Positions 9,737-21,859 of a stretch of 64,000 nt of DNA are shown one piece after another. The notes under the pieces are model-generated. The model was not told the origin of the DNA. It saw only the letters and a program-made list of their open reading frames with translations, and did no database searches. Location: the NCBI GenBank assembly GCA_903900265.1, contig CAIUMM010000106.1, positions 62,001 through 126,000 of the forward strand, written 5' to 3'. Position 1 is the stretch's first letter. Each line of letters begins with the position of its first letter. The position numbers and the translations under genes are program-made. Source of the stretch: an uncultured Pseudomonadota bacterium (GTDB lineage: Bacteria > Myxococcota_A > UBA796 > SXON01).

Positions 9737-10567
9737 ATGTACCCGATGCTCATGCTCGTCACCTTTGCGTTCGCTGGATCGACCCCGTCGATCGTCCCTT
9801 TTCCTGTCCGCGCGACCGATGCCGTCAGCGGCACCACGTTCGCCGAACAGATCGCGGCACTCCCGGATCATGAGCGCTACGCCGCGACGCGCGACGCGGT
9901 GCTCTCAGGAAACGTGCCTTCGTTCCTTCGCAGTCTGGTCCCGGTCACGCTCGTCGGAGGCCCGAGCGCCGCCGCGACCACGATCACCGTGTTCGTGACG
10001 CGAGACTACTTGTCGGTCGGCGGTGATGACGACTTTGTCCCGATGCCGCTGGATTTTGTAGACGCCGCCGAGGTCGCGAGCGCGCTGGGCTTCGGCTTGC
10101 CTACGCGACGCATCGTCGATGCGATCTACAACGCCGCCGACGTGCAGGGCACCCCTGCGCCGCTGCCCGCGGGTCCGGAGATGCGCTCCATCCCCTACAT
10201 CCTCGAGAGTCGGGCGCGCATCGTCGCGGAGATCGGAGCCAGCCACATCGGAGCGCTGTGGGCCGGAACGAAGAAAGACCTCGTGCTGACTCCACAGTTA
10301 CAAGCCCAGCCTGACCGGGAGGCGATCTACGGGTGGCACCAGCAAAACGGACGCCCGATCCAACCGTTGAGCCTCGTGCACGGCGTGCATTACGCCGACT
10401 ACAGCCACGGCATCCGCCTCGTCGCCGACACTGTGCTGGTGAACGGCGAGCCGCGCAGCTACTTCGACGTGCTCGCGGACCCTGCCCTCGCCGCGTGCCT
10501 GAGCGACGAGGGCCCGATCCCGCAGGCGCGGGCGTTCATCGCGACCGCTGCAAATGCAGATGGATAG
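9737..10567 (+). CDS. Secreted protein of unknown function
   Basis: 276 residues. A short hydrophobic N-terminus (MLMLVTFAFAG) suggests a signal peptide. The body is globular with no membrane segment. A distinctive C-terminal stretch, GWHQQNGRPIQPLSLVHG then HYADYSHGIRLV (about residues 200-235), is rich in His, Asp and Tyr, as in a catalytic or metal site, but I cannot name the family with certainty. The gene follows the histidine kinase by 35 bases in the same direction and may be co-transcribed with it. AGGGGAAGG about 15 bases upstream of the ATG at 9737 is a possible ribosome binding site. Confidence 0.6.
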   Translation: MYPMLMLVTFAFAGSTPSIVPFPVRATDAVSGTTFAEQIAALPDHERYAATRDAVLSGNVPSFLRSLVPVTLVGGPSAAATTITVFVTRDYLSVGGDDDFVPMPLDFVDAAEVASALGFGLPTRRIVDAIYNAADVQGTPAPLPAGPEMRSIPYILESRARIVAEIGASHIGALWAGTKKDLVLTPQLQAQPDREAIYGWHQQNGRPIQPLSLVHGVHYADYSHGIRLVADTVLVNGEPRSYFDVLADPALAACLSDEGPIPQARAFIATAANADG

Positions 10568-10840: not shown

Positions 10841-12277
10841 ATGTACACCGTGCTCCTTGTCGATCCGTCGCCGACCCGGGATGTCCTCGCAGAGCGCTTG
10901 GAGCTGCAAGGGTACCGCGTGGTCAGCACCTCGGACGCCGCCAAAGGAGCCCACCTCGCCCTGTCCGCCCCCCCGGCGATCATCATCGCCGACCTTTGGA
11001 TGCCCGGCATCTCCGGCATCCAACTGTGCCGGCTGCTCCGCTCGGAGCCCGCCACCGAGCACGTGCCGATCATCCTGCGCGGCCCGGAGCAGAGCGGCCG
11101 GGATCGCTTCTGGGCCGAGCGCGCCGGCGCGATCGCCTACGTCGGCCGTGGCAGCATGGGCGACCTCGTGCGCGCCCTCAACCAAGCGCTCGCGGCGGCG
11201 CCGCCCCAAGCCGACGGGTTCTTCACCCAACTTGGGGGTGGCGAGCTCGACTTGCGTGAACGTATCGCCGCACAGTTGGACAGCGCGCTGTTCGATTCGG
11301 TGATCGCCTCGGAGATCCGCGCATTGGGCGTCTGCGGCACCTTCGACCGCTTGTTTGACACTCTCTCCCAATTTGTGGTGCGGGTCGCCGGATACCGTTG
11401 GCTCGCCGTGCACAGCTTCCAACCCGAGCGCTTCGCGGTGCACGCGCACCCCGCACATCGGCAGGCCGCCGAAATCGAAGCCCGCGCGGCGCTCCGGGTG
11501 TGCAGCGACGTCCCCGCCATGTTCGTCGAGGATGAAGACGCCGCCGATGAGGCGACGGGCTCGACCCCGCTGTTCGAGGCGATCACGATGGGCGCCGACA
11601 CCTTGGGCACGATCGCGATGGGCGCACGCGCGCCCGTGGCGGGCGTACACGGCGCCCACGAAGCCGATCTGATGCGGGTGATCGCCCGCGAGCTGGGCGG
11701 CCCGATCCGCATCGCGACGCTGATGGAAGAGTCCAACCGGCTGGCGATGATCGACCCGCTCACCGGCTTGCTGAACCGGCGCGCGTTCATCGCCGCGATG
11801 GAGCGGCAGATCGCGCTGCTGGAGCGTCACGGAGAAGGCTTTTGCCTGCTGCTGCTCGACGTCGACCACTTCAAGAACCTCAACGACCAGCACGGGCACG
11901 CCACCGGAGACGCGGTGCTCATGCACCTCGGCGTCACCCTCCCCGCGTGTGTGCGGCGGTCCGACGTGGTCGGGCGCTGGGGCGGCGAGGAGTTTGTGAT
12001 CGCGCTGACCATCCAGGACCCGACGCGCGCCGCAGCCCGCGCCGAGACCATTCGGCAGGCGATCGCCAACATCGTCGTGCGCGACTCCACCGGCGCGCCG
12101 GTCGAGGTCACCGCCTCCATCGGCGTGGCAGCCGCGGAGTTCGGGGACAGCGTAGAGCAGCTGGTCGAGCGCGCCGACAAGGCGATGTACGCGGCGAAGT
12201 CCGCGGGCCGCAACAACGTCACGCTGCACCCGGGCACGCCTCCGGCGCTGCAGGCGCGCCCGGCACAGGTGCATTGA
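10841..12277 (+). CDS. Receiver-GGDEF diguanylate cyclase
   Basis: 478 residues from ATG 10841. Residues 1-115 are a receiver domain (LLVDPSPT, IADLWMPGISG), but the usual KP motif near its end is not evident. A middle region (about 145-295) resembles a GAF domain. The C-terminal GGDEF domain has DPLTGLLNRRAF, DVDHFKNLND and the active-site GRWGGEEF. The product is cyclic-di-GMP. An RRSD inhibitory site sits five residues before GGEEF, so product feedback is expected. As first gene of the chemosensory cluster, it is a plausible output or input, linking CheA signalling to c-di-GMP. It overlaps the next gene by one base. Confidence 0.9.
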   Translation: MYTVLLVDPSPTRDVLAERLELQGYRVVSTSDAAKGAHLALSAPPAIIIADLWMPGISGIQLCRLLRSEPATEHVPIILRGPEQSGRDRFWAERAGAIAYVGRGSMGDLVRALNQALAAAPPQADGFFTQLGGGELDLRERIAAQLDSALFDSVIASEIRALGVCGTFDRLFDTLSQFVVRVAGYRWLAVHSFQPERFAVHAHPAHRQAAEIEARAALRVCSDVPAMFVEDEDAADEATGSTPLFEAITMGADTLGTIAMGARAPVAGVHGAHEADLMRVIARELGGPIRIATLMEESNRLAMIDPLTGLLNRRAFIAAMERQIALLERHGEGFCLLLLDVDHFKNLNDQHGHATGDAVLMHLGVTLPACVRRSDVVGRWGGEEFVIALTIQDPTRAAARAETIRQAIANIVVRDSTGAPVEVTASIGVAAAEFGDSVEQLVERADKAMYAAKSAGRNNVTLHPGTPPALQARPAQVH

Positions 12278-12678
12278 TGGCCGTCGCCCCAAAGGTGCTC
12301 GTCGTTGATCATACGCTGTTTGTACGACAACAGTTGAACCTGACGCTGACCGGTGCTGGCTTCACGGTGCTCGAAGCCTCCGATGGAGAGCTTGGATTGC
12401 TTCAGGTCGAGTACCATCCGGACGTCGCGATGGTGCTCTCAGAGGTGGACATGCCCCACATGGACGGGCTCACGATGTTGGAGCGGCTGAAGGCGAACGG
12501 CGCACGGCCTGCGCTGCCGGTGCTCATGCTCACCGCGCATGCGCCGCTGCCGCTGTTGGGGCGAGCCAAACGCGCCGGAGCCCGGGGATGGATCGTACGC
12601 CCGATCAAACCGGAACATCTGGTCGAGACCGTGCGGCGCCTCACCACGTCGACGGCGACGTACGCCCGCGCATCCTGA
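12277..12678 (+). CDS. Degenerate CheY-like receiver (pseudo-receiver)
   Basis: 133 residues, a single receiver fold. The phospho-acceptor position is Glu56 (LSEVDMPHMDG, where the family has D-x-x-M-P). The acid pocket is D11-H12 instead of Asp-Asp, and the conserved Lys is Arg108 (WIVRPIKPEHL). The switch Thr (LMLTAHA) is kept. Normal phosphotransfer from CheA is therefore unlikely; Glu may mimic a permanently phosphorylated state. It is translationally linked (TGATG) to the diguanylate cyclase and lies just before cheA. It could be a constitutive or competitor partner of CheA or of the motor/output protein. Confidence 0.85.
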   Translation: MAVAPKVLVVDHTLFVRQQLNLTLTGAGFTVLEASDGELGLLQVEYHPDVAMVLSEVDMPHMDGLTMLERLKANGARPALPVLMLTAHAPLPLLGRAKRAGARGWIVRPIKPEHLVETVRRLTTSTATYARAS

Positions 12679-12763: not shown

Positions 12764-15166
12764 ATGGACGACATCGACGATATGGAGGAAGTCATCAACG
12801 ACTTCCTGGTCGAGAGCCACGAGAACCTCGACCGACTGGACCGAGACTTTGTCGCTTTTGAGGCGGACCCGTCCCAGAAGGCGCTGCTTCCTGCCATTTT
12901 CCGTGCCATCCACACCATCAAAGGCACCTGCGGGTTCCTCGGGTACTCCAAGCTGGAGGCGCTCTCCCACGTGGGCGAGACCCTCCTCGGCAAAATGCGC
13001 GACGGCACCCTCGCGCCCACTCAAGCCCGCATCACCGCGTTGCTGGCGATGGTCGATGCGATTCGCGCGATGCTCCACAGCATCGAGACCACCCGAAACG
13101 ACGGCGCCGATGACCACGCGGCGCTCCGGGGCACGCTGACCGCCCTGCTGACCGATGCGCCGGAGGAGCCCGCCCCGGTCGCAACGGCCGCGCCGGTCGC
13201 AACGCCCGCGCCGATCGCAACGCCCGCGCCGATCGCGCCCCCCGCGCCGATCGCAACGCCCACGCCGATCGCCCAACCCGCGCCGATCGCCCAGCCCGCG
13301 CAGATCGCGACGACCGCCCCGATCGCGACGCCCGCGCCGATCGCGACGCCCGCGCCGATCGCGACGCCCGCGCCGGCGGTCCCGCAGCCCGCCCGTCCCG
13401 CGCCCGGCGAGCCAGCGACCGCCCCGACGACCGCCTCAGCGACAGAATCGAGCGTGCGCGTCGACGTCGCGCTGCTCGGCAAGCTGATGAACCTCGTCGG
13501 CGAGCTTGTGCTGACGCGCAACCAGCTGCTGCAACATACGAACCTCGGCGGCGATCCCGGCCTGATGGCCGCCACGCAGCGCCTGAACCTCATCACCTCC
13601 GAGCTGCAAGAAGAGGTGATGCGCACCCGCATGCAGACCGTCGGCACGGTGTGGGCCAAGTTCCCGCGCCTGGTCCGCGACCTCTGCGCATCCTGCGGCA
13701 AACAAGTGCGCCTCGAGATGGACGGCCAAGACACCGAGGTGGACCGCACCCTCCTCGACGCCATCAAGGATCCGCTCACCCACATCATCCGCAACGCGGT
13801 CGACCACGGAATCGAAGCGCCGGCACGTCGCATCGCGGCCGGAAAACCCGCAGAGGGAACCTTGTCGCTGCGCGCCTTCCATGAAGGCGGCCAAGTGAAC
13901 ATCGAGATCGTAGACGATGGGGGAGGGATCCCGCTCGATCGCATTCGGAAAAAGGCCATCGAGCGAGGCCTGATCACCCCCGAAGCCGCGGCGCGTATGC
14001 TCGATCAGGACGTCATCAACTTGATCTTCGTCCCCGGATTTTCCACGGCCGAAGCGGTCACCAACGTCTCGGGGCGAGGCGTCGGTATGGACGTCGTACG
14101 CACCAACATCGAGCAGGTGGGCGGCGCGATCGTGCTGGAGAGCCGCGAGGGGGAAGGCACCCGCATCCGGATTCGCATCCCACTGACGCTCGCCATCGTT
14201 CCGGCGCTGATCATCGAGTGCAGCGGTGATCGCTACGCGATCCCGCAGGTGAGCCTCGTCGAGCTCGTGCGCATCGAGCCAGAGGACGTCGCGACGGTGG
14301 TGGAGCACGTGCATGACGTGCCGGTGATCCGGCGGCGCGGCAAGCTGCTGCCGATCCTCACGCTGGCGCGCGAGCTCGCGCTGCCCCTCGAGAAGAATGG
14401 AGGAGCCGTCAGCCTCGTCGTGCTTCAGGCCGCAGACCAGTGCTTCGGCATCATCGTCGACAGGATCTGCGACACCGCCGAGATCGTCGTCAAGCCGTTG
14501 GGCCGTATGCTCAAGGACATCGGGGTCTACGCCGGCGCGACGATCATGGGCGACGGCGGCGTCGCGTTGATCCTCGACGTCATCGGGCTCGCGACGCGCG
14601 CCGGGCTCTTGGGCGAGTCCAGCGCGGGTTTCCGCGCCGAAGCGGCCGCCAGCGCGATCGCGGTCGCGGGCGAAGGAAAGCAGCGGGTGCTGGTCGTAGG
14701 ATCCCGCGACGACGCCCGAATTGCGATGCCGCTGGACCACGTGGAGCGCCTCGAGGAGATCCCCGCCGCGATGATCGAGCGCACCGGATCGCAGGAGGTC
14801 ACCCAATACCGGGGTGGGATTCTGCCGCTCGTTCGCCTGTCGCGCGTGCTGACCGAGCGGCGCACGCATCCCCGCCATGGCCCGACCTGGGGACCGCCGG
14901 AAGGGGATCTGCTCCCCGTGATCCTGTACTCCTCCAACGGCAACCACGTCGGCATTATCGTCGACCAGATCCACGACATCATCGAAGAGGAGCTGACCGC
15001 GCGCCGCCCCGCGGTGCGAGCGGGCGTGCTGTTCTCCGTCGTCCTGCTCGGGCGGGTGACCGAGATGATCGATCTCGAGTGGGTCGTCGCTTCGCTCGAA
15101 CGACCAGGCCCGGCGTTCCATCGCGCGGCAGGGCCGAAGAACACCGCAGCCTCAGGTGCTGAATGA
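12764..15166 (+). CDS. cheA: Chemotaxis histidine kinase CheA with two CheW-like domains
   Basis: 800 residues. The HPt domain (1-110) has phospho-His50 in FRAIHTIKGTCGF. A Pro/Ala/Ile repeat linker spans about 137-205. The dimerisation domain follows (LGKLMNLVGELVLTRNQLLQ), then HATPase_c with HIIRNAVDHGIE, DDGGGI and the VSGRGVGMDVV loop. Two CheW-like domains are at the end (about 475-620 and 640-780), where most CheA proteins have one. No P2 CheY-binding domain is recognisable; the low-complexity linker occupies its place. It sits in the cytoplasmic receptor array with CheW and the MCP encoded downstream, phosphorylating CheY proteins. It overlaps cheW by ATGA. Confidence 0.97.
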   Translation: MDDIDDMEEVINDFLVESHENLDRLDRDFVAFEADPSQKALLPAIFRAIHTIKGTCGFLGYSKLEALSHVGETLLGKMRDGTLAPTQARITALLAMVDAIRAMLHSIETTRNDGADDHAALRGTLTALLTDAPEEPAPVATAAPVATPAPIATPAPIAPPAPIATPTPIAQPAPIAQPAQIATTAPIATPAPIATPAPIATPAPAVPQPARPAPGEPATAPTTASATESSVRVDVALLGKLMNLVGELVLTRNQLLQHTNLGGDPGLMAATQRLNLITSELQEEVMRTRMQTVGTVWAKFPRLVRDLCASCGKQVRLEMDGQDTEVDRTLLDAIKDPLTHIIRNAVDHGIEAPARRIAAGKPAEGTLSLRAFHEGGQVNIEIVDDGGGIPLDRIRKKAIERGLITPEAAARMLDQDVINLIFVPGFSTAEAVTNVSGRGVGMDVVRTNIEQVGGAIVLESREGEGTRIRIRIPLTLAIVPALIIECSGDRYAIPQVSLVELVRIEPEDVATVVEHVHDVPVIRRRGKLLPILTLARELALPLEKNGGAVSLVVLQAADQCFGIIVDRICDTAEIVVKPLGRMLKDIGVYAGATIMGDGGVALILDVIGLATRAGLLGESSAGFRAEAAASAIAVAGEGKQRVLVVGSRDDARIAMPLDHVERLEEIPAAMIERTGSQEVTQYRGGILPLVRLSRVLTERRTHPRHGPTWGPPEGDLLPVILYSSNGNHVGIIVDQIHDIIEEELTARRPAVRAGVLFSVVLLGRVTEMIDLEWVVASLERPGPAFHRAAGPKNTAASGAE
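13172..13379 (+). repeat. 18-bp tandem repeat coding the CheA linker
   Basis: About eleven imperfect copies of an 18-bp unit encode the hexapeptide APIATP and variants. Many units contain CGATCG. Because the unit is a multiple of three, copy-number change alters linker length without a frameshift. Confidence 0.8.
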
Positions 15167-15597
15167 TCGAGCCCCACTCCCTCGTCACGTTCAAGGTCGA
15201 CGGCCTTCGCTTCGGCATCGACGTCGCTCGCGTGCAAGAGGTGCTGCGCGCCACCACCAACACCCGCGTGCCGCTGGCACCCCAGGTGATCGGCGGTCTG
15301 GTCAACCTGCGCGGCGAGATCGTCGTCGCGTTGGACATGCGCCGCCGGCTCGGGCTCCCCGACGCTGCGCGCGACGCCCAGAGGATGAACCTCGTGGTGC
15401 GCACGCCCGAAGGCCCGATCAGCCTCATCGTCGACGAGATCGGCGAGGTCATGGAGCCCACCGAAGATCAGCTCGAGCGCATCCCCGACACGCTGCGTGG
15501 CCCGGTGCGGCAGTACGCAGACGGCGTGGTGAAGGCCAGCGGCGGGCCGTTGCTGATCCTGAACGTCGAACGCGCGATCGACATGCGGGGGTCCTGA
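15163..15597 (+). CDS. cheW: Chemotaxis coupling protein CheW
   Basis: 144 residues, one CheW SH3-like domain: LVTFKVDGLRFGIDVARVQEVLR, IGGLVNLRGEIVVALDMRRRLGL, then ISLIVDEIGEV and QYADGVVKASGGPLLILNV. It bridges MCP signalling tips and CheA in the cytoplasmic array. It overlaps cheA by ATGA and is followed after three bases by an in-frame start for the OprB-like gene. Confidence 0.96.
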   Translation: MIEPHSLVTFKVDGLRFGIDVARVQEVLRATTNTRVPLAPQVIGGLVNLRGEIVVALDMRRRLGLPDAARDAQRMNLVVRTPEGPISLIVDEIGEVMEPTEDQLERIPDTLRGPVRQYADGVVKASGGPLLILNVERAIDMRGS

Positions 15598-15600
15598 ACG

Positions 15601-16578
15601 ATGCCGATCCCGCTTGGAGACATCGTCGCACCCATCGCCGTGGTGGCCTTGGAAGGCTCCGCAACGGACGAAGCCGCGGTGGCGGCGCGCAGCCTGGCAA
15701 ACCTCGGAGTGAGCGTAGACATCGGTGCGTTCTCGCCTTGGAAGGGCGCGAGCATCACCGGCGTGCTGCAAGGCATCTTCGGCAATGAGGCGGGCGCATC
15801 GTACGGCGCGTGGCAAGGCTACTCCAACATCCAGGCCGATCCGCTCGTTGGGGCTGCGGAGGTTTTCCTCGCGCAGGAGCTCGGCGAGGTCGTGGCGCTA
15901 CGCGCAGGCAGGATCGACGGCGGCGGCAGCTTCGGCGTCACCCGTCACGGCGCGGACTTCATCAATCCTTCCTTCGGCGTATCGCCGACGATGGCGGGCG
16001 TTCCTACCTTTCCCGAACCCACATGGGGCGGCGAGGTCGAAGCCACGCCGCTCTCCGCGCTGTCTGTGATGGCTGGGGCCTACGCAGGAGAAGGAGGGCC
16101 CTACCTCATCGGCCAGATCGGCAGCCAATGGGCAGCGGAGCAGCGCGGCGAAGGAAGCGCGGCGGCCGGCGCCTGGCACAACGGCGAAGGCACAGGCGCG
16201 TTCGCGGTCGTGGACCAACAGGTGCTCGGGATGCCCGGAGAGCGCGGTCTCACCGGCTTTGCCCAGCTCGGCCTCGCCCGACCGTTAGACGGCGGAGCGC
16301 GGGCGCACCTCGGCGGCGGATTCGTACTTCACGGGCCGCTTACCGCGCGCAGTGACGACGCAGTGGGCGTAGGCGTTAGCTGGGTGGCGTTGCCAGACTC
16401 GCTGCAAGACTCGCTAAGCGCCGCATACGACGGAGCCAAATCCGAGACCATCGCGGAGGTTTGGTACGAAGCGGCGCTCGCCGCTGAGCTCGCCATTCGT
16501 TTGGATGTGCAAGCCTTTGTGCGCTCGCCCTCCCAAACCGGCGGCATCGCCACCCTCCGCACCCAGTTTTCCCTTTAG
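15601..16578 (+). CDS. OprB-like carbohydrate-selective porin, no clear signal peptide
   Basis: 325 residues. The order of motifs fits OprB-family porins: SNIQADPLVGAAEVFLAQEL, VALRAGRID, ADFINPSFGVSPTM, FPEPTWG, GAFAVVDQQV, GLTGFAQLGLA, GVGVSWV and a final beta strand RTQFSL. OprB barrels let sugars cross the outer membrane. The N-terminus MPIPLGDIVAPIAVVALEGSA is only weakly hydrophobic and lacks positive charge, and no upstream start can supply a signal because the cheW stop lies in the same frame three bases before. Either export uses an atypical signal or the start region has been lost. Its place inside the che operon suggests a link between substrate entry and chemosensing. Confidence 0.65.
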   Translation: MPIPLGDIVAPIAVVALEGSATDEAAVAARSLANLGVSVDIGAFSPWKGASITGVLQGIFGNEAGASYGAWQGYSNIQADPLVGAAEVFLAQELGEVVALRAGRIDGGGSFGVTRHGADFINPSFGVSPTMAGVPTFPEPTWGGEVEATPLSALSVMAGAYAGEGGPYLIGQIGSQWAAEQRGEGSAAAGAWHNGEGTGAFAVVDQQVLGMPGERGLTGFAQLGLARPLDGGARAHLGGGFVLHGPLTARSDDAVGVGVSWVALPDSLQDSLSAAYDGAKSETIAEVWYEAALAAELAIRLDVQAFVRSPSQTGGIATLRTQFSL

Positions 16579-16649
16579 TTTTCCCCTTCGTTTTCATTGT
16601 AGTTTGCGCCAAGCCGGCCGGATAAACCCCCTCAGGATCGGACACCCAC

Positions 16650-18281
16650 ATGACCGCCAGCACTTTCACTCCAAATCGGCTTCGTGACGACGCAGAGGCC
16701 GCCCCGCGCGCGGCAGGAGGCCTCTCGGTGCGCATGCGCTTGCTCGCGCTCAGCGGAATTTCCGTCGTCGCCCTCGGCGCGCTCGGCATCGCCGCGTGGC
16801 GAGCCGACGGCCAGTCCCGCGCCAGCATGGCCCACGTGAAGAACGCCGGACAGATCCTCGCGGTGCAGCTTGACGCCGACATGATGCACGACGCGCTGCG
16901 GGGCGACGCGCTGCGGCTGCTCTCCACGACCGACCCGGCGACCATCCAGAGCACGCGCTCCGACATCGACGCGCACACCGCCCGCATCGAGGCCGACATC
17001 TCCGAGATCGCAGCGGCCCAGCTGACCCCCGAGATCGACACCTACGTGGCCGACCTTCGGCCTGCCCTTCTGGACTACGTCAAGGATTCGCGCGAGCTCG
17101 CGACGCTGGCGACCAGCGACCGCGAGGCGCTCACCGCGGCGATGCCCGCTTTCCAGCAATCGTTCACCACCCTCGAAGGCAAGATGGCCGGCCTGTCCGA
17201 CCTTATGGCCGCGCACAGCGACGCGGTCGACGTTGCCCTGAACGAGACCCTCGACGGCAGCGCGTGGCTGATGCGCGGCATCTGCGGCGTAGGCTTGATC
17301 GCGCTGATCATCAGCACGATCACCATCACCCGCAGCATCGTCGACCCGATGCGCTCGGCGATGACCGGCCTCGACGCACTCGCCCGGCGCGACTGCACCT
17401 ACCGCATGCGGCCGGAAGGTCCCACCGAGATGGTGCAGATGGCCCACGCCCTCAACCACTCGGTCGAAGGCATCGGCGGCGCCATCGGTACCATCGCCAC
17501 CGGCGCGCAATCGCTGGCCTCGTCCGCATCGAGCCTGACCGGCATCAGCGAAGCGCTCGGCACCGACGCCGAGTCCACCTCCGCACAGGTTCAGGCCGCC
17601 TCTGCGGCTGCAGAAGAAGTGAGCGAGAACGTCCAGACCGTCGCAACCGGCATCGAAGAGATGAGCGTCGCGATGCGCGAGGTCGCCAAGAGCGCGAGCG
17701 AAGCGTCGAGCGTCGCCACCATGGCCGTACAGGCCGCGGACGTCACCAACCGCACCGTCTCTCGCTTGGGCGACAGCAGCGCTGAGATCGGCAAGGTCGT
17801 CAAGGTGATCACCTCGATCGCCCAACAAACCAACCTGCTCGCGCTCAACGCCACCATCGAAGCTGCGCGCGCCGGAGAGGCCGGAAAGGGCTTCGCCGTC
17901 GTCGCCAACGAGGTCAAGGAGCTCGCCAAGGAGACCGCAAAAGCCACGGAGGACATCAGCAAGAAGGTGGAGGCTATCCAAGCGGACACCCGCGTGGCGG
18001 TAGAAGCCATCCAGCAGATCGGCGCGACGATCAACCAGATCCACGACCTGCAGAGCACCATCGCCAGCGCAGTGGAAGAGCAGACCGCGACCGCGAACGA
18101 GATCGCGCGCAATGTCGCCGAAGCCGCGCGCGGGAGCGCGCACATCGCGTCCAGCATTGGGGCGGTGTCGCACGCCGCCGCGCGCACCACCGCGAGCGCT
18201 GCTACCGCCCGCGCAGCCGCGGCAGAACTGGTCGCGCTCGCCAGCAACCTCCAAAACGTCGTATCTCAGTTCCGTATCTGA
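16650..18281 (+). CDS. Methyl-accepting chemotaxis protein
   Basis: 543 residues. Transmembrane segment 1 is at about 29-50, a helical periplasmic sensor of four-helix-bundle type at about 51-205, and transmembrane segment 2 at about 207-228. HAMP follows, then a cytoplasmic coiled-coil signalling domain. The hairpin tip reads [21 protein letters not shown], which binds CheA and CheW. Glu/Gln-rich flanks are likely methylation sites for the CheR and CheB encoded downstream. There is no C-terminal pentapeptide tether. The only receptor gene in the cluster, it probably defines its input. Confidence 0.96.
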
Positions 18282-18285
18282 CCCC

Positions 18286-18304
18286 CCGCTCCGCAGCGGA
18301 GCGG
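18286..18304. repeat. GC-rich inverted repeat between mcp and cheY
   Basis: CCGCTCCGC and GCGGAGCGG flank a single A, so RNA could fold a stem of seven or eight pairs just after the MCP stop. There is no T-run, so a terminator is unlikely. It may stabilise or separate the mcp message from cheY onwards. Confidence 0.45.
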
Positions 18305-18319
18305 ATACCCGGAGTCTCT

Positions 18320-18712
18320 ATGCTCGCTCTCGTCGTCGATGACTCTCGCGCCATGCGAAGCATCATCAAGAACATCATCAAGACGGAAGGGTTCACCTTT
18401 GTCGAAGCCGGTCATGGGCTCGAAGCCCTCGCCGTGCTCGAGACGGGCGAAGTCCCCGATCTCGCGCTGGTGGACTGGAACATGCCCGAGATGAACGGCT
18501 TGGAATTCGTACAGGCCGTGCGCGCAAATGAGCGCTTCAACACGATGAAGATCCTGATGGTGACCACCGAGACCGAGTTCGAGTACATGAGCCGCGCCTT
18601 AGAAGCCGGTGCAAATGAATACCTGATGAAGCCCTTCGACCGGGCGGCGTTGCGCGGGAAGCTCGAGATGATCGGACTGATCGCACCGACTGAAATACAG
18701 GACAATGAATGA
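18320..18712 (+). CDS. cheY: CheY-type single-domain response regulator
   Basis: 130 residues with all receiver residues: VVDDSRAMR, LVDWNMPEMNG with the phospho-acceptor Asp, MVTTET and YLMKPFD. It is expected to be phosphorylated by CheA. The binding partner could be a motor or another output. It overlaps cheB by ATGA. Confidence 0.93.
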   Translation: MLALVVDDSRAMRSIIKNIIKTEGFTFVEAGHGLEALAVLETGEVPDLALVDWNMPEMNGLEFVQAVRANERFNTMKILMVTTETEFEYMSRALEAGANEYLMKPFDRAALRGKLEMIGLIAPTEIQDNE

Positions 18713-19659
18713 GCGTATTGCGCGTGTTCGTGATCGCTGGCTCGGCAGAAGGGCGGCAAGGCCTGACCGACGCGATCCGAGACGCGGGTGCGGAGGTCAG
18801 CGGCTCGGCGGCCGATGTGCGCGCGGGATTCGAGAGGCTTCGCAGCAGTCCGCCCGGGCTAGTCACCGTGGCGCGCTCCTCCTGCCCGGACGCGGGCACG
18901 CTCGCTGCGATGCTGCGCGCGCAACAGCTCGAAACCTCCGTGCTCGTTCACGCGGATGAGTCCGCAAACAGCGTACGCACCGAGGTCCTCCCCACCGTAC
19001 GCGTGCTGATCCGCAGGCATTTAGCGGGTACCGCCGGATCTGGAACGGTGCAGGTCGTCGCGATCGGCGCGTCCACCGGCGGTCCGGTCGCGCTGCCGCA
19101 GCTGCTGGCCGCGCTGCGCGGGCCCATCGCCGTTCCCATCCTGATCGTTCAACACATGCCGGTCGGCTTCACCGGTCCATTCGCGGAGAGACTGACGCGC
19201 CAGTGCGGGTTTCCGGTACGCGAAGCCGTGACCGGAGCCGTCCCGCGCGCGGGGGAGGCGTGGCTCGCCCCCGCAGACCACCACATGGTGCTCAAGCGCA
19301 CCGAAGATGGTCTGCACCTGATCACCCACCGCGGCCCGCCTGAAAACTCCTGTAGACCTGCAGTAGACGTGCTGTTCCGCAGCGTAGCCGAAGCCGTCGG
19401 CTCGCGCGGGCTCGGCGTGGTGCTCACCGGCATGGGACAAGACGGCCTGATCGGCGCACGACAGATGTCGGGGACGGGAGCTTCGATCCTCGTCCAAGAC
19501 GAGGCTTCCAGCGTGATCTGGGGCATGCCCGGAGCCATCGCCAAGGCGGGGATCGCGGCGCGCATCCTGCCGCTTGAACCCTTGGCGGCCGAGATCCTCG
19601 CCCGCGTTCCTCCGCCACCGCGCCTCCCTGCGCCCTCACGCCCGCCCTCGTCGGTCTAA
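18709..19659 (+). CDS. cheB: CheB methylesterase with a degenerate receiver domain
   Basis: 316 residues. The C-terminal methylesterase (about 110-300) is intact: Ser122 in IGASTGGP, His149 in QHMPVGF and Asp245 in GMGQDG. It removes methyl esters from MCP glutamates. The N-terminal receiver-like domain keeps the fold (VFVIAGSAEGRQGL) but has Ala10-Gly11 in place of the Asp pair, and VTVARSSCPD where the phospho-acceptor Asp and MP motif belong. CheA therefore probably cannot activate it by phosphorylation. It lies between cheY (ATGA overlap) and cheR. Confidence 0.94.
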   Translation: MSVLRVFVIAGSAEGRQGLTDAIRDAGAEVSGSAADVRAGFERLRSSPPGLVTVARSSCPDAGTLAAMLRAQQLETSVLVHADESANSVRTEVLPTVRVLIRRHLAGTAGSGTVQVVAIGASTGGPVALPQLLAALRGPIAVPILIVQHMPVGFTGPFAERLTRQCGFPVREAVTGAVPRAGEAWLAPADHHMVLKRTEDGLHLITHRGPPENSCRPAVDVLFRSVAEAVGSRGLGVVLTGMGQDGLIGARQMSGTGASILVQDEASSVIWGMPGAIAKAGIAARILPLEPLAAEILARVPPPPRLPAPSRPPSSV

Positions 19660-19670
19660 GGACGCAAACG

Positions 19671-20516
19671 ATGCCGCTCTCAGCACCCGACTACCAGTTC
19701 CTGAAGAACCTGGTGTACAAAGACTCCGCCATCGTCTTGGGGGATGACCACGCCTACTTGCTCGAGGCGCGACTTGGGCCGCTCGCGCAGCTAGAGGGCG
19801 TGGCCGACGTCACCGCGCTCGTTCGCGTGCTGCAAAAGGCAGCCGATCCTGCGCTGAGGCGCCGCGTGGTCGAGACGATGACCACCAACGAGACCAGCTT
19901 CTTTAGGGACATCCAGCCCTTCGAAGTCCTGAAAAATACGATTCTCCCGGAGCTGGTCAAAAAGCGCGCGACCGAACGGAGCCTGCGGATCTGGTCTGGA
20001 GCCGCGTCCACCGGTCAGGAGGCTTGCAGCTTGGCGATGACCTTGCTCGAGCACCAGCGGGACGTCGCGCTGGGGTGGGACGTGCAGATCCTCGGGACCG
20101 ACCTGTCCAGCCGCGTGGTCGAACGCGCAAAGAGCGGCCTCTACAGCCAGCTCGAGGTCAACCGCGGACTGCCGGCCCCGATGCTGATGAAGCATTTTAC
20201 CCGCTCGGGGGTGCAGTGGCAGACCTCAAGCGCGGTGCAAAGGTTGGTGCAGTACCGGGTGATGAACCTCGCCGCCGCATGGCCGCTGATGCCGCAATTC
20301 GACATCATCTTCCTACGCAACGTGCTCATCTACTTCGACATGGACACCCGACGCGCCATCTTCACCCGGCTCCGCAACTGCCTACGCAAAGACGGCGTGC
20401 TGTTCATCGGCGGGGCGGAGAGCATTCGCGAAGCCGATGACGCCTTTGAGTGCGTGCGCGCAGGCTCTACCCATTACTACCGTCACAAGACACAGCCCAC
20501 AGCGGGCATAGGATGA
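19671..20516 (+). CDS. cheR: Chemoreceptor methyltransferase CheR
   Basis: 281 residues. The helical N-terminal domain (1-80) contains TTNETSFFRD at its end. The SAM-binding Rossmann domain shows IWSGAASTGQEACSLAM, ILGTDLSSRVVERA, FDIIFLRNVLIYFD and LFIGGAESI. It methylates MCP glutamates with S-adenosylmethionine, opposing CheB. There is no TPR extension. The stop overlaps the next gene by ATGA. Confidence 0.96.
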   Translation: MPLSAPDYQFLKNLVYKDSAIVLGDDHAYLLEARLGPLAQLEGVADVTALVRVLQKAADPALRRRVVETMTTNETSFFRDIQPFEVLKNTILPELVKKRATERSLRIWSGAASTGQEACSLAMTLLEHQRDVALGWDVQILGTDLSSRVVERAKSGLYSQLEVNRGLPAPMLMKHFTRSGVQWQTSSAVQRLVQYRVMNLAAAWPLMPQFDIIFLRNVLIYFDMDTRRAIFTRLRNCLRKDGVLFIGGAESIREADDAFECVRAGSTHYYRHKTQPTAGIG

Positions 20517-20995
20517 CTGCCATGGACCCCGAAGTTTCCGACCTCCTCCAGATGACCGAGGTCGTGTGGTCAACCGTGCTGGGCCTCCCGCTCGAGCAAC
20601 GGACCGAGACCGACGCCAAGGCGCCCGGCATCACCGGCTGCGTGCACATCACCGGCGCATGGGAGGGTGTGCTGTTGATCTTCGCCGCCGGCGAGCTGGG
20701 CCGTACGCTGGCCGCTTCGATGTTCGCGATGGACGCTGCCGAGGTGACCGAGTCCGAGACCATCGACGCCATCTGTGAGATCGCCAACATTCTGGGCGGA
20801 AACATCAAGGCGCTGGTTCCCCAACCTTCGCTGCTGTCCTTACCTTCCACGCTCGACGGCCCCAGAGCCAATCAGCACTTTCCGCGCACCCGCGAAGTGT
20901 GCGCACTGAACCTGACCTGCGAAGGCGAGCAGCTGAGCGTGTTAGTTTTAAAGAAAATATCCGACGACGCCACACGCACGAAACACGACACCTGA
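20513..20995 (+). CDS. cheX: CheX-type CheY phosphatase
   Basis: 160 residues from ATG 20513, which overlaps the cheR stop. An upstream in-frame start exists but has no context. The CheX/CheC signature is ICEIANILGGN (about residues 84-94), matching E-x-x-N-x-x-x-G-N, the acid-amide pair that dephosphorylates CheY-P. A TGCVHITGAWEG strand pair precedes it. In this cluster it should reset one of the two intact CheY proteins. Confidence 0.85.
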   Translation: MTAMDPEVSDLLQMTEVVWSTVLGLPLEQRTETDAKAPGITGCVHITGAWEGVLLIFAAGELGRTLAASMFAMDAAEVTESETIDAICEIANILGGNIKALVPQPSLLSLPSTLDGPRANQHFPRTREVCALNLTCEGEQLSVLVLKKISDDATRTKHDT

Positions 20996-21020
20996 GCGCG
21001 GCACGCCGCCCGGAGCACCC

Positions 21021-21383
21021 TTGAAAATTTTGATCGTAGACGACAGCCGCGCGATGCGCATGATCGTGGCCCGCACGCTTCGCCAAACCGGCGTGGACGT
21101 CAACATCGTCGGCGAGGCCGCAAACGGACAAGAGGCGCTCAAGATGATCGCCGAATTTGGCCCGGACCTCGTGCTGTGTGACTGGAACATGCCCGTCATG
21201 AACGGCCTCGAGTTGCTCACCGCCTTGCGCGCAGCCAACAACCCCGTCCGCTTCGGCTTCGTCACCTCGGAGGGCACCAGCGACGTGCGGGAGACCGCCC
21301 TCGCTGCGGGCGCCGCCTTCGTGTTGGTCAAGCCGTTCATGGTCGAAGACTTCCGCGTCGCGATCACCACGGGCAAGCCATGA
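21021..21383 (+). CDS. cheY: CheY-type single-domain response regulator (second copy)
   Basis: 120 residues from TTG 21021, with CCGGAG upstream. All receiver residues are present: IVDDSRAMR, LCDWNMPVMNG, VTSEGT and LVKPFMV. It overlaps the following CheX-like gene by ATGA. It is clearly divergent from the other CheY, so separate outputs or a phosphate-sink role are possible. Confidence 0.92.
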   Translation: MKILIVDDSRAMRMIVARTLRQTGVDVNIVGEAANGQEALKMIAEFGPDLVLCDWNMPVMNGLELLTALRAANNPVRFGFVTSEGTSDVRETALAAGAAFVLVKPFMVEDFRVAITTGKP

Positions 21384-21859
21384 GCGTCGACTACGTTCAG
21401 TTCACCGGAGATGGCCTGAAGCAGACGCTCACCGCGCTGCTCGGCCGGGCGGTCACCGTGAAGTCCGTGCCTCCGGCGCCGACGCCCGCTTGGGCGGTGA
21501 CCGCCACCTATGTGCGCCCCGACGGCGCGATGCAGGGCACCTGCGTGCTCGACATCTCCGCCGCGGCCAGCATCGGCGCCGCGCTCACGATGATCCCCGC
21601 GCCGGTCACCGTCACCGCCGTCAAGAACAAGGCGATGCCCGAGGGCCTGATGGAGAACTTGCAGGAGGTGCTCAACGTCATGGCGCGGCTGTTCCAGTCC
21701 GCAGCCCATGAGCGGACCAGCTTGCAAGGTGTATACGTGACGCCCAAAGCCCCACCGCCCGCCGCTGCGCCGATCTCCAAGAGCCCGCGCGCCCGGTTGG
21801 ATCTCGAGGTCTCCGTCTCTGGCTACGCGCCTGGCCGAGTCACGCTCTACAGCGCCTGA
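21380..21859 (+). CDS. Divergent CheX-like protein
   Basis: 159 residues. MENLQEVLNVMARLF (about 91-105) aligns with the CheX/CheC helix, retaining E-x-x-N but replacing the following G-N. GTCVLDISAAASIGAALTMIP resembles the core strand and helix. A Pro-rich stretch at about 120-135 leads to a short C-terminal beta segment. Phosphatase activity is uncertain; it may be a CheY-binding adaptor. Its coupling to the second cheY suggests they act together. Confidence 0.6.
   Translation: MSVDYVQFTGDGLKQTLTALLGRAVTVKSVPPAPTPAWAVTATYVRPDGAMQGTCVLDISAAASIGAALTMIPAPVTVTAVKNKAMPEGLMENLQEVLNVMARLFQSAAHERTSLQGVYVTPKAPPPAAAPISKSPRARLDLEVSVSGYAPGRVTLYSA

Follow-up and report, generated by a model that had tools for sequence, protein, structure and literature searches.

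A CheY-like protein encoded between a diguanylate cyclase gene and a che operon has canonical ancestry and carries changes focused on its phosphorylation pocket. Our preferred reading, held with middling confidence, is that an orphaned canonical CheY turned into a lineage-specific, phosphorylation-independent pseudo-receiver, which is probably active-like for the adjacent cyclase. The pseudo-receiver class is already known, and what makes the case interesting is the transition documented here. The features considered in the window (the whole stretch of DNA analyzed, 64,000 nucleotides) are as follows, with their evidence in parentheses.

10841..12277, forward strand: diguanylate cyclase with a pseudo-receiver, a putative GAF-like middle, and a GGDEF domain (GGEEF, upstream RxxD) (Pfam, orthologues, tree)
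12275..12279, forward strand: TGATG overlap of the cyclase stop and the CheY-like start (sequence)
12277..12678, forward strand: CheY-like protein, most likely a pseudo-receiver (133 aa; D11-H12, E56, T86, R108, I110) (ORF, Pfam, alignment, AlphaFold)
12307..12312, forward strand: codons D11 (GAT, 12307-12309) and H12 (CAT, 12310-12312), the second acidic metal-binding residue being changed to His
12442..12444, forward strand: codon E56 (GAG) at the phospho-acceptor position, Asp in 30/30 relatives
12598..12606, forward strand: codons R108 (CGC, 12598-12600), P109, and I110 (ATC, 12604-12606), K-P-F in relatives and K-P-V in one
12764..15166, forward strand: cheA of a complete che operon (Hpt, dimer, HATPase, and two CheW stretches), distinct from the ancestral partner kinase (Pfam)
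15163..21859, forward strand: rest of the che operon, comprising cheW, an OprB-like porin gene, mcp, cheY, cheB, cheR, cheX, cheY, and the unassigned ORF 21380-21859 (Pfam and other evidence)

Residues, fold, and relatives of the CheY-like protein

The open reading frame starts with ATG, ends with TGA, and encodes a stand-alone receiver, the whole domain of which was spanned by Pfam Response_reg (PF00072) at 72.9 bits (cut-off of 30.2). Alignment with solved CheY proteins placed D11, H12, E56, T86, R108, and I110 at D12, D13, D57, T87, K109, and F111 of E. coli CheY, the numbering of the window protein being one lower. The protein carries D-H / E / T / R in place of the canonical receiver set D-D / D / T / K. 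The AlphaFold model, built from 14 aligned sequences, had a mean pLDDT of 88.9 and a complete (beta-alpha)5 receiver fold with five strands and five helices, and its best PDB matches were Spo0F, Thermotoga RR468, and CheY structures (TM about 0.84-0.86). The first-pass annotation had described the three replaced residues, with the switch Thr (T86) and the fold remaining, and this description was borne out by the codons, the alignment, and the model. Ile110, at a position with Phe in relatives, is one more change of note.

The protein is recognized computationally as a receiver by PF00072, and its DD2, D, and K residues are all replaced, as in the published definition of a pseudo-receiver (PMC12632262); with Glu56 in place of the acceptor Asp, it also falls among the aspartate-less receivers (ALRs). 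It therefore fits both classes, and phosphotransfer chemistry is most likely absent, as predicted from these residues. Pseudo-receivers make up about 6% of bacterial receivers, and their origin and working are an open question (PMC12632262). They are not rare in the source genome (G000) as such, since about 7 of its about 42 receivers lack canonical residues, with Glu at the acceptor position in two. A second receiver with an acceptor Glu (D-P / E / A / K) was located at G000:C175:18365-18868 (L182). An assembly or base-calling error is unlikely to have produced the window allele, as nearly half of its positions differ from the nearest relatives, no frame breaks were present, and the locus lies inside a 269-kb contig. 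No second, canonical copy was seen in the source genome, in which the next-best match had an E value of 4e-12.

Relatives were searched for in two overlapping sets of genomes, one from the class (71) and one from the phylum (379), and 30 related sequences were found (36 to 56% identity in the aligned stretch). The acidic first residue and the D, D, T, and K residues were kept in all 30, and the residue two positions after the Lys (K+2) was Phe in 29 and Val in one; H12, E56, or R108 occurred in none. The canonical subfamily is marked by TTEG and GA[KR]GWIVKPF, and the window protein is the single departure within it. The reading as an old, conserved pseudo-receiver family, for which the first-pass annotation had proposed an alignment of orthologues, was rejected, as no relative departs from the canonical second acid, D, T, or K. 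None of the four other genomes of the same genus had a close orthologue (best matches with E values between 6e-16 and 8e-12). A scan of genome contigs returned distant, unspecific receivers only. A second genome with the window allele was not found among the relatives examined, and the new residues cannot be shown to be conserved.

The ancestral module and its missing partners

In the relatives, the kinase of the CheY module is a membrane protein that combines a PAS-like stretch with an Hpt domain and a CheA-type ATPase and lacks a CheW domain. It adjoins the CheY–cyclase pair or sits elsewhere in the genome in G009, G011, G028, and G040. The neighbor of the CheY gene in these four genomes is an orthologue of the window cyclase (41-65% identical), and full-length cyclase orthologues in the class were present only in these genomes and G000, each near the CheY. 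Judging from these neighborhoods, the cyclase is the ancestral partner gene of the CheY in the nearest genomes (REC-GAF-GGDEF). A CheX-family protein was found in the module of G011, G028, G040, G024, and G045 and at many loci of the phylum. A kinase matching both Hpt and ATPase was present in 11 of the 70 other class genomes, all 11 of which also had the CheY; two class genomes, both incomplete (76% and 83% complete), had the CheY without such a kinase, and 57 had neither gene. This co-occurrence (11/2/0/57) gave a Fisher p of 4e-11, calculated with shared ancestry ignored for genomes that are not phylogenetically independent. The module of a CheW-less membrane kinase with Hpt and CheA-type ATPase, a GWIVKPF-type CheY, and often CheX is widespread (L078, L079, L080, L083, L084, L085, L089, and L090), and no published description of an Hpt-kinase/CheX/CheY/cyclase module was found in the literature searched.

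The window protein is orthologous to the canonical CheYs of this module (G009, G011, G028, G040, and others) by sequence, tree, and cyclase neighbor, and shares with them W at K-3 and the GA[KR]GWIV-P motif. It differs from them in D12H, C55S, D56E, P91L, K108R, and F110I, in its lost partners, and in its accelerated change. No module-type kinase was found in the source genome, where the only matches were the window CheA and a CheA-like protein on contig C111; the assembly is 94% complete, and a kinase elsewhere in the genome is possible. No relative of the G011 CheX was detectable in the source genome either. A contig break does not explain the missing kinase and CheX at the locus, because the locus is inside its contig. 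The G011-type CheX was also not detected in G009, the CheY of which is canonical, and thus CheX loss alone does not explain the residue change.

The preferred reading would begin with a canonical single-domain CheY of an Hpt-kinase module, usually with CheX and, in the nearest genomes, with the REC-GAF-GGDEF cyclase. The kinase and phosphatase genes would have been lost in this lineage, and the cyclase–CheY pair would have come to lie just upstream of an unrelated che operon, in an order of events that we infer. The pocket would have been rebuilt (His for the second acid, Glu for the acceptor Asp, Arg for the Lys, and Ile for the Phe at K+2) with the fold retained, and a phosphoryl group is most likely no longer accepted. 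The protein would then be in an active-like state and work through protein contact, with the translationally coupled cyclase as its probable target and a possible effect on c-di-GMP.

Rates and positions of change

In the 14-taxon CheY tree, the window branch had 1.81 changes per column compared to 0.21 for G009 and 0.30 for G011, and in the five-taxon CheY tree, it had 0.87 compared to 0.18 and 0.24 in the sisters. In the cyclase tree, the window branch (0.27) was similar to the others (0.28 and 0.30); the acceleration is confined to the CheY-like gene. Fast evolution is also expected under relaxed constraint, which counts against the preferred reading and suits its main rival, an early stage of gene decay. 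According to this rival, which we regard as possible, loss of the kinase put an end to selection on phosphorylation, and what is left is a protein that still folds but has no function and is bound to disappear in time. In the relatives, the old function is tied to D/D/K, and the third-position GC content (GC3) of the gene is somewhat low (76.9 compared to 85-91 in the cyclase gene, cheA, cheW, and mcp), yet that of cheY2 is 77.1. In neutral simulations to the same divergence, 22-41% kept an intact frame without a stop, which is compatible with decay, and the intact frame alone is therefore weak evidence of function.

The positions of change speak against simple decay. Of the 25 columns invariant in the 13 orthologues, the six residues listed above were changed in the window protein, and five of the six map to the phosphorylation pocket or next to it (hypergeometric p of 0.0055, a significance inflated by a pocket column set that the analyst picked knowing the changes). 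Among the 17 invariant columns outside the pocket, 16 were kept, compared to 47 of 94 other columns (Fisher p of 0.0005, with the caveat that slowly changing residue types are also overrepresented in orthologue-invariant columns). The window protein has no internal indels compared to the nearest orthologues, its gene overlaps tightly with an intact cyclase gene evolving at a normal rate, and its changes are like those in functional pseudo-receivers. From this column pattern, constraint on the fold appears to have lasted through at least part of the branch even as the chemistry was lost. The first-pass annotation had taken canonical orthologues as a sign of a decaying gene; the new residues are indeed not shared by the relatives, but simple decay is not the sole outcome, as the fold positions outside the pocket were kept.

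A stronger version of the preferred reading, which we put forward tentatively, is that after the loss of the kinase (and CheX), selection remodelled the CheY into a permanently active-like cyclase partner, by which a phosphorylation-gated c-di-GMP switch would have become constitutive or contact-gated. If so, the birth of a pseudo-receiver was captured with its canonical sisters as controls. The pointers to an active-like state are Glu56, Ile110, and His12 together with Trp at the Y106 position, and the 'locked active' state suggested by the first-pass annotation is plausible. The acceptor Asp is replaced most frequently by Glu (26%), which often fails to activate alone (PMC4395418); Glu at this position partly mimics phosphate in many regulators, and Arg is a common replacement of the Lys (PMC12632262). 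Ile at K+2 favors active conformations of CheY (PMC12632262).

The window protein resembles the Glu class of ALRs and pseudo-receivers (PMC12632262 and PMC4395418) in being recognized by Pfam without the acceptor Asp, the second acid, and the Lys, in its non-Phe residue at K+2, and in the absence of a kinase, as for most studied atypical regulators. It differs in being a stand-alone domain, in having canonical sisters at 52-54% identity, and in that its lost kinase is identifiable in relatives. With the constitutively active CheY D13K/Y106W (PDB 1u8t; PMC11528121), it shares the replacement of the second acid by a possibly basic residue (His) and Trp at the Y106 position; however, it is natural, its Lys is changed to Arg, its acceptor is Glu, its Trp is ancestral in the subfamily, and its output partner is a putative one. 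EpsW of Myxococcus xanthus is likewise a single-domain regulator, one that has been described as orphaned from its kinase, but it keeps the canonical Asp, and its engineered D58E and D13K forms showed no activation and lost function, a warning against equating Glu with an active state (PMC4671073). What is less usual here is that the ancestor, the lost partners, and the changed residues can all be named within one family, and Glu56, His12, and Ile110 are open to one-by-one comparison with the canonical sisters.

The replaced pocket also bears on whether phosphorylation persists in an unorthodox form, at Glu56, at His12, or elsewhere in the protein, with CheA or a small molecule as the donor. 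T86, D11, and the fold are kept, and Glu can be phosphorylated (PMC4395418), but neither the metal-binding second acid nor the Lys is present, and bacterial phospho-Glu signaling was not known to the authors of that study (PMC4395418); we consider this highly improbable.

Coupled cyclase and downstream che operon

The translational tie to the diguanylate cyclase, noted in the first-pass annotation, was confirmed by the stop–start overlap, whereas in G009, the cyclase stop is a few dozen bases upstream of the CheY start. The N-terminal receiver of the cyclase (10841-11195) has D-P, a kept D, no T, and no K, and the identical state was found in G009 and G011. This pseudo-receiver is better conserved than the GGDEF domain (73-80% compared to 56-59%). 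Such conservation would fit a surface used for contact, not a site of phosphorylation, and the CheY may dock there. Contact between the two proteins is suggested by the gene neighborhood alone. The ORF at 9737-10567 (276 aa), just upstream of the cyclase gene, had no Pfam or NCBIfam match.

The CheY-like gene lies 86 bp upstream of cheA in the same direction, and the intervening sequence gave no informative promoter or terminator signal. Its place just before cheA, as given in the first-pass annotation, is correct, but this nearness is probably incidental, because the partner in the relatives is a different, CheW-less Hpt kinase that was not found in the source genome. G009 has an orthologous che operon (CheA core 81% identical) on a contig separate from the module; this contig starts inside cheA, and hence no upstream neighbor is visible. 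Its cyclase–CheY pair is followed by an apparently unrelated gene on the opposite strand. G011 has the module and no match to the window CheA at 1e-60 in the search with a CheA fragment. This CheY is thus not consistently associated with this cheA operon in the relatives, its assignment as the cognate of the adjacent CheA is not supported, and the CheY–CheA adjacency is probably recent, because the module and operon are separated in G009 and the module occurs without this CheA in G011.

The same comparisons weigh on the first-pass proposal of a decoy and on the related reading in which the protein, as a decoy or docking partner, would occupy a surface of the downstream CheA or compete with the canonical CheYs of the operon (genes at 18320 and 21021). 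The short distance to cheA, the shared direction without a terminator-like site in between, and the predicted CheY fold would suit this role; the descent from a module with another kinase and the arrangements in G009 and G011 leave it without support, and we judge it improbable. The case also warns against taking CheA as the kinase of a protein because its gene lies near cheA.

Within the operon, an OprB-like porin gene (15601-16578) lies between cheW and mcp and was not seen in the G009 operon. The CheB encoded from 18709 (18709-19659) begins with about 110 residues that have no Pfam receiver match or acidic pocket, a part that G009 CheB appears to lack altogether, and its methylesterase domain is intact.
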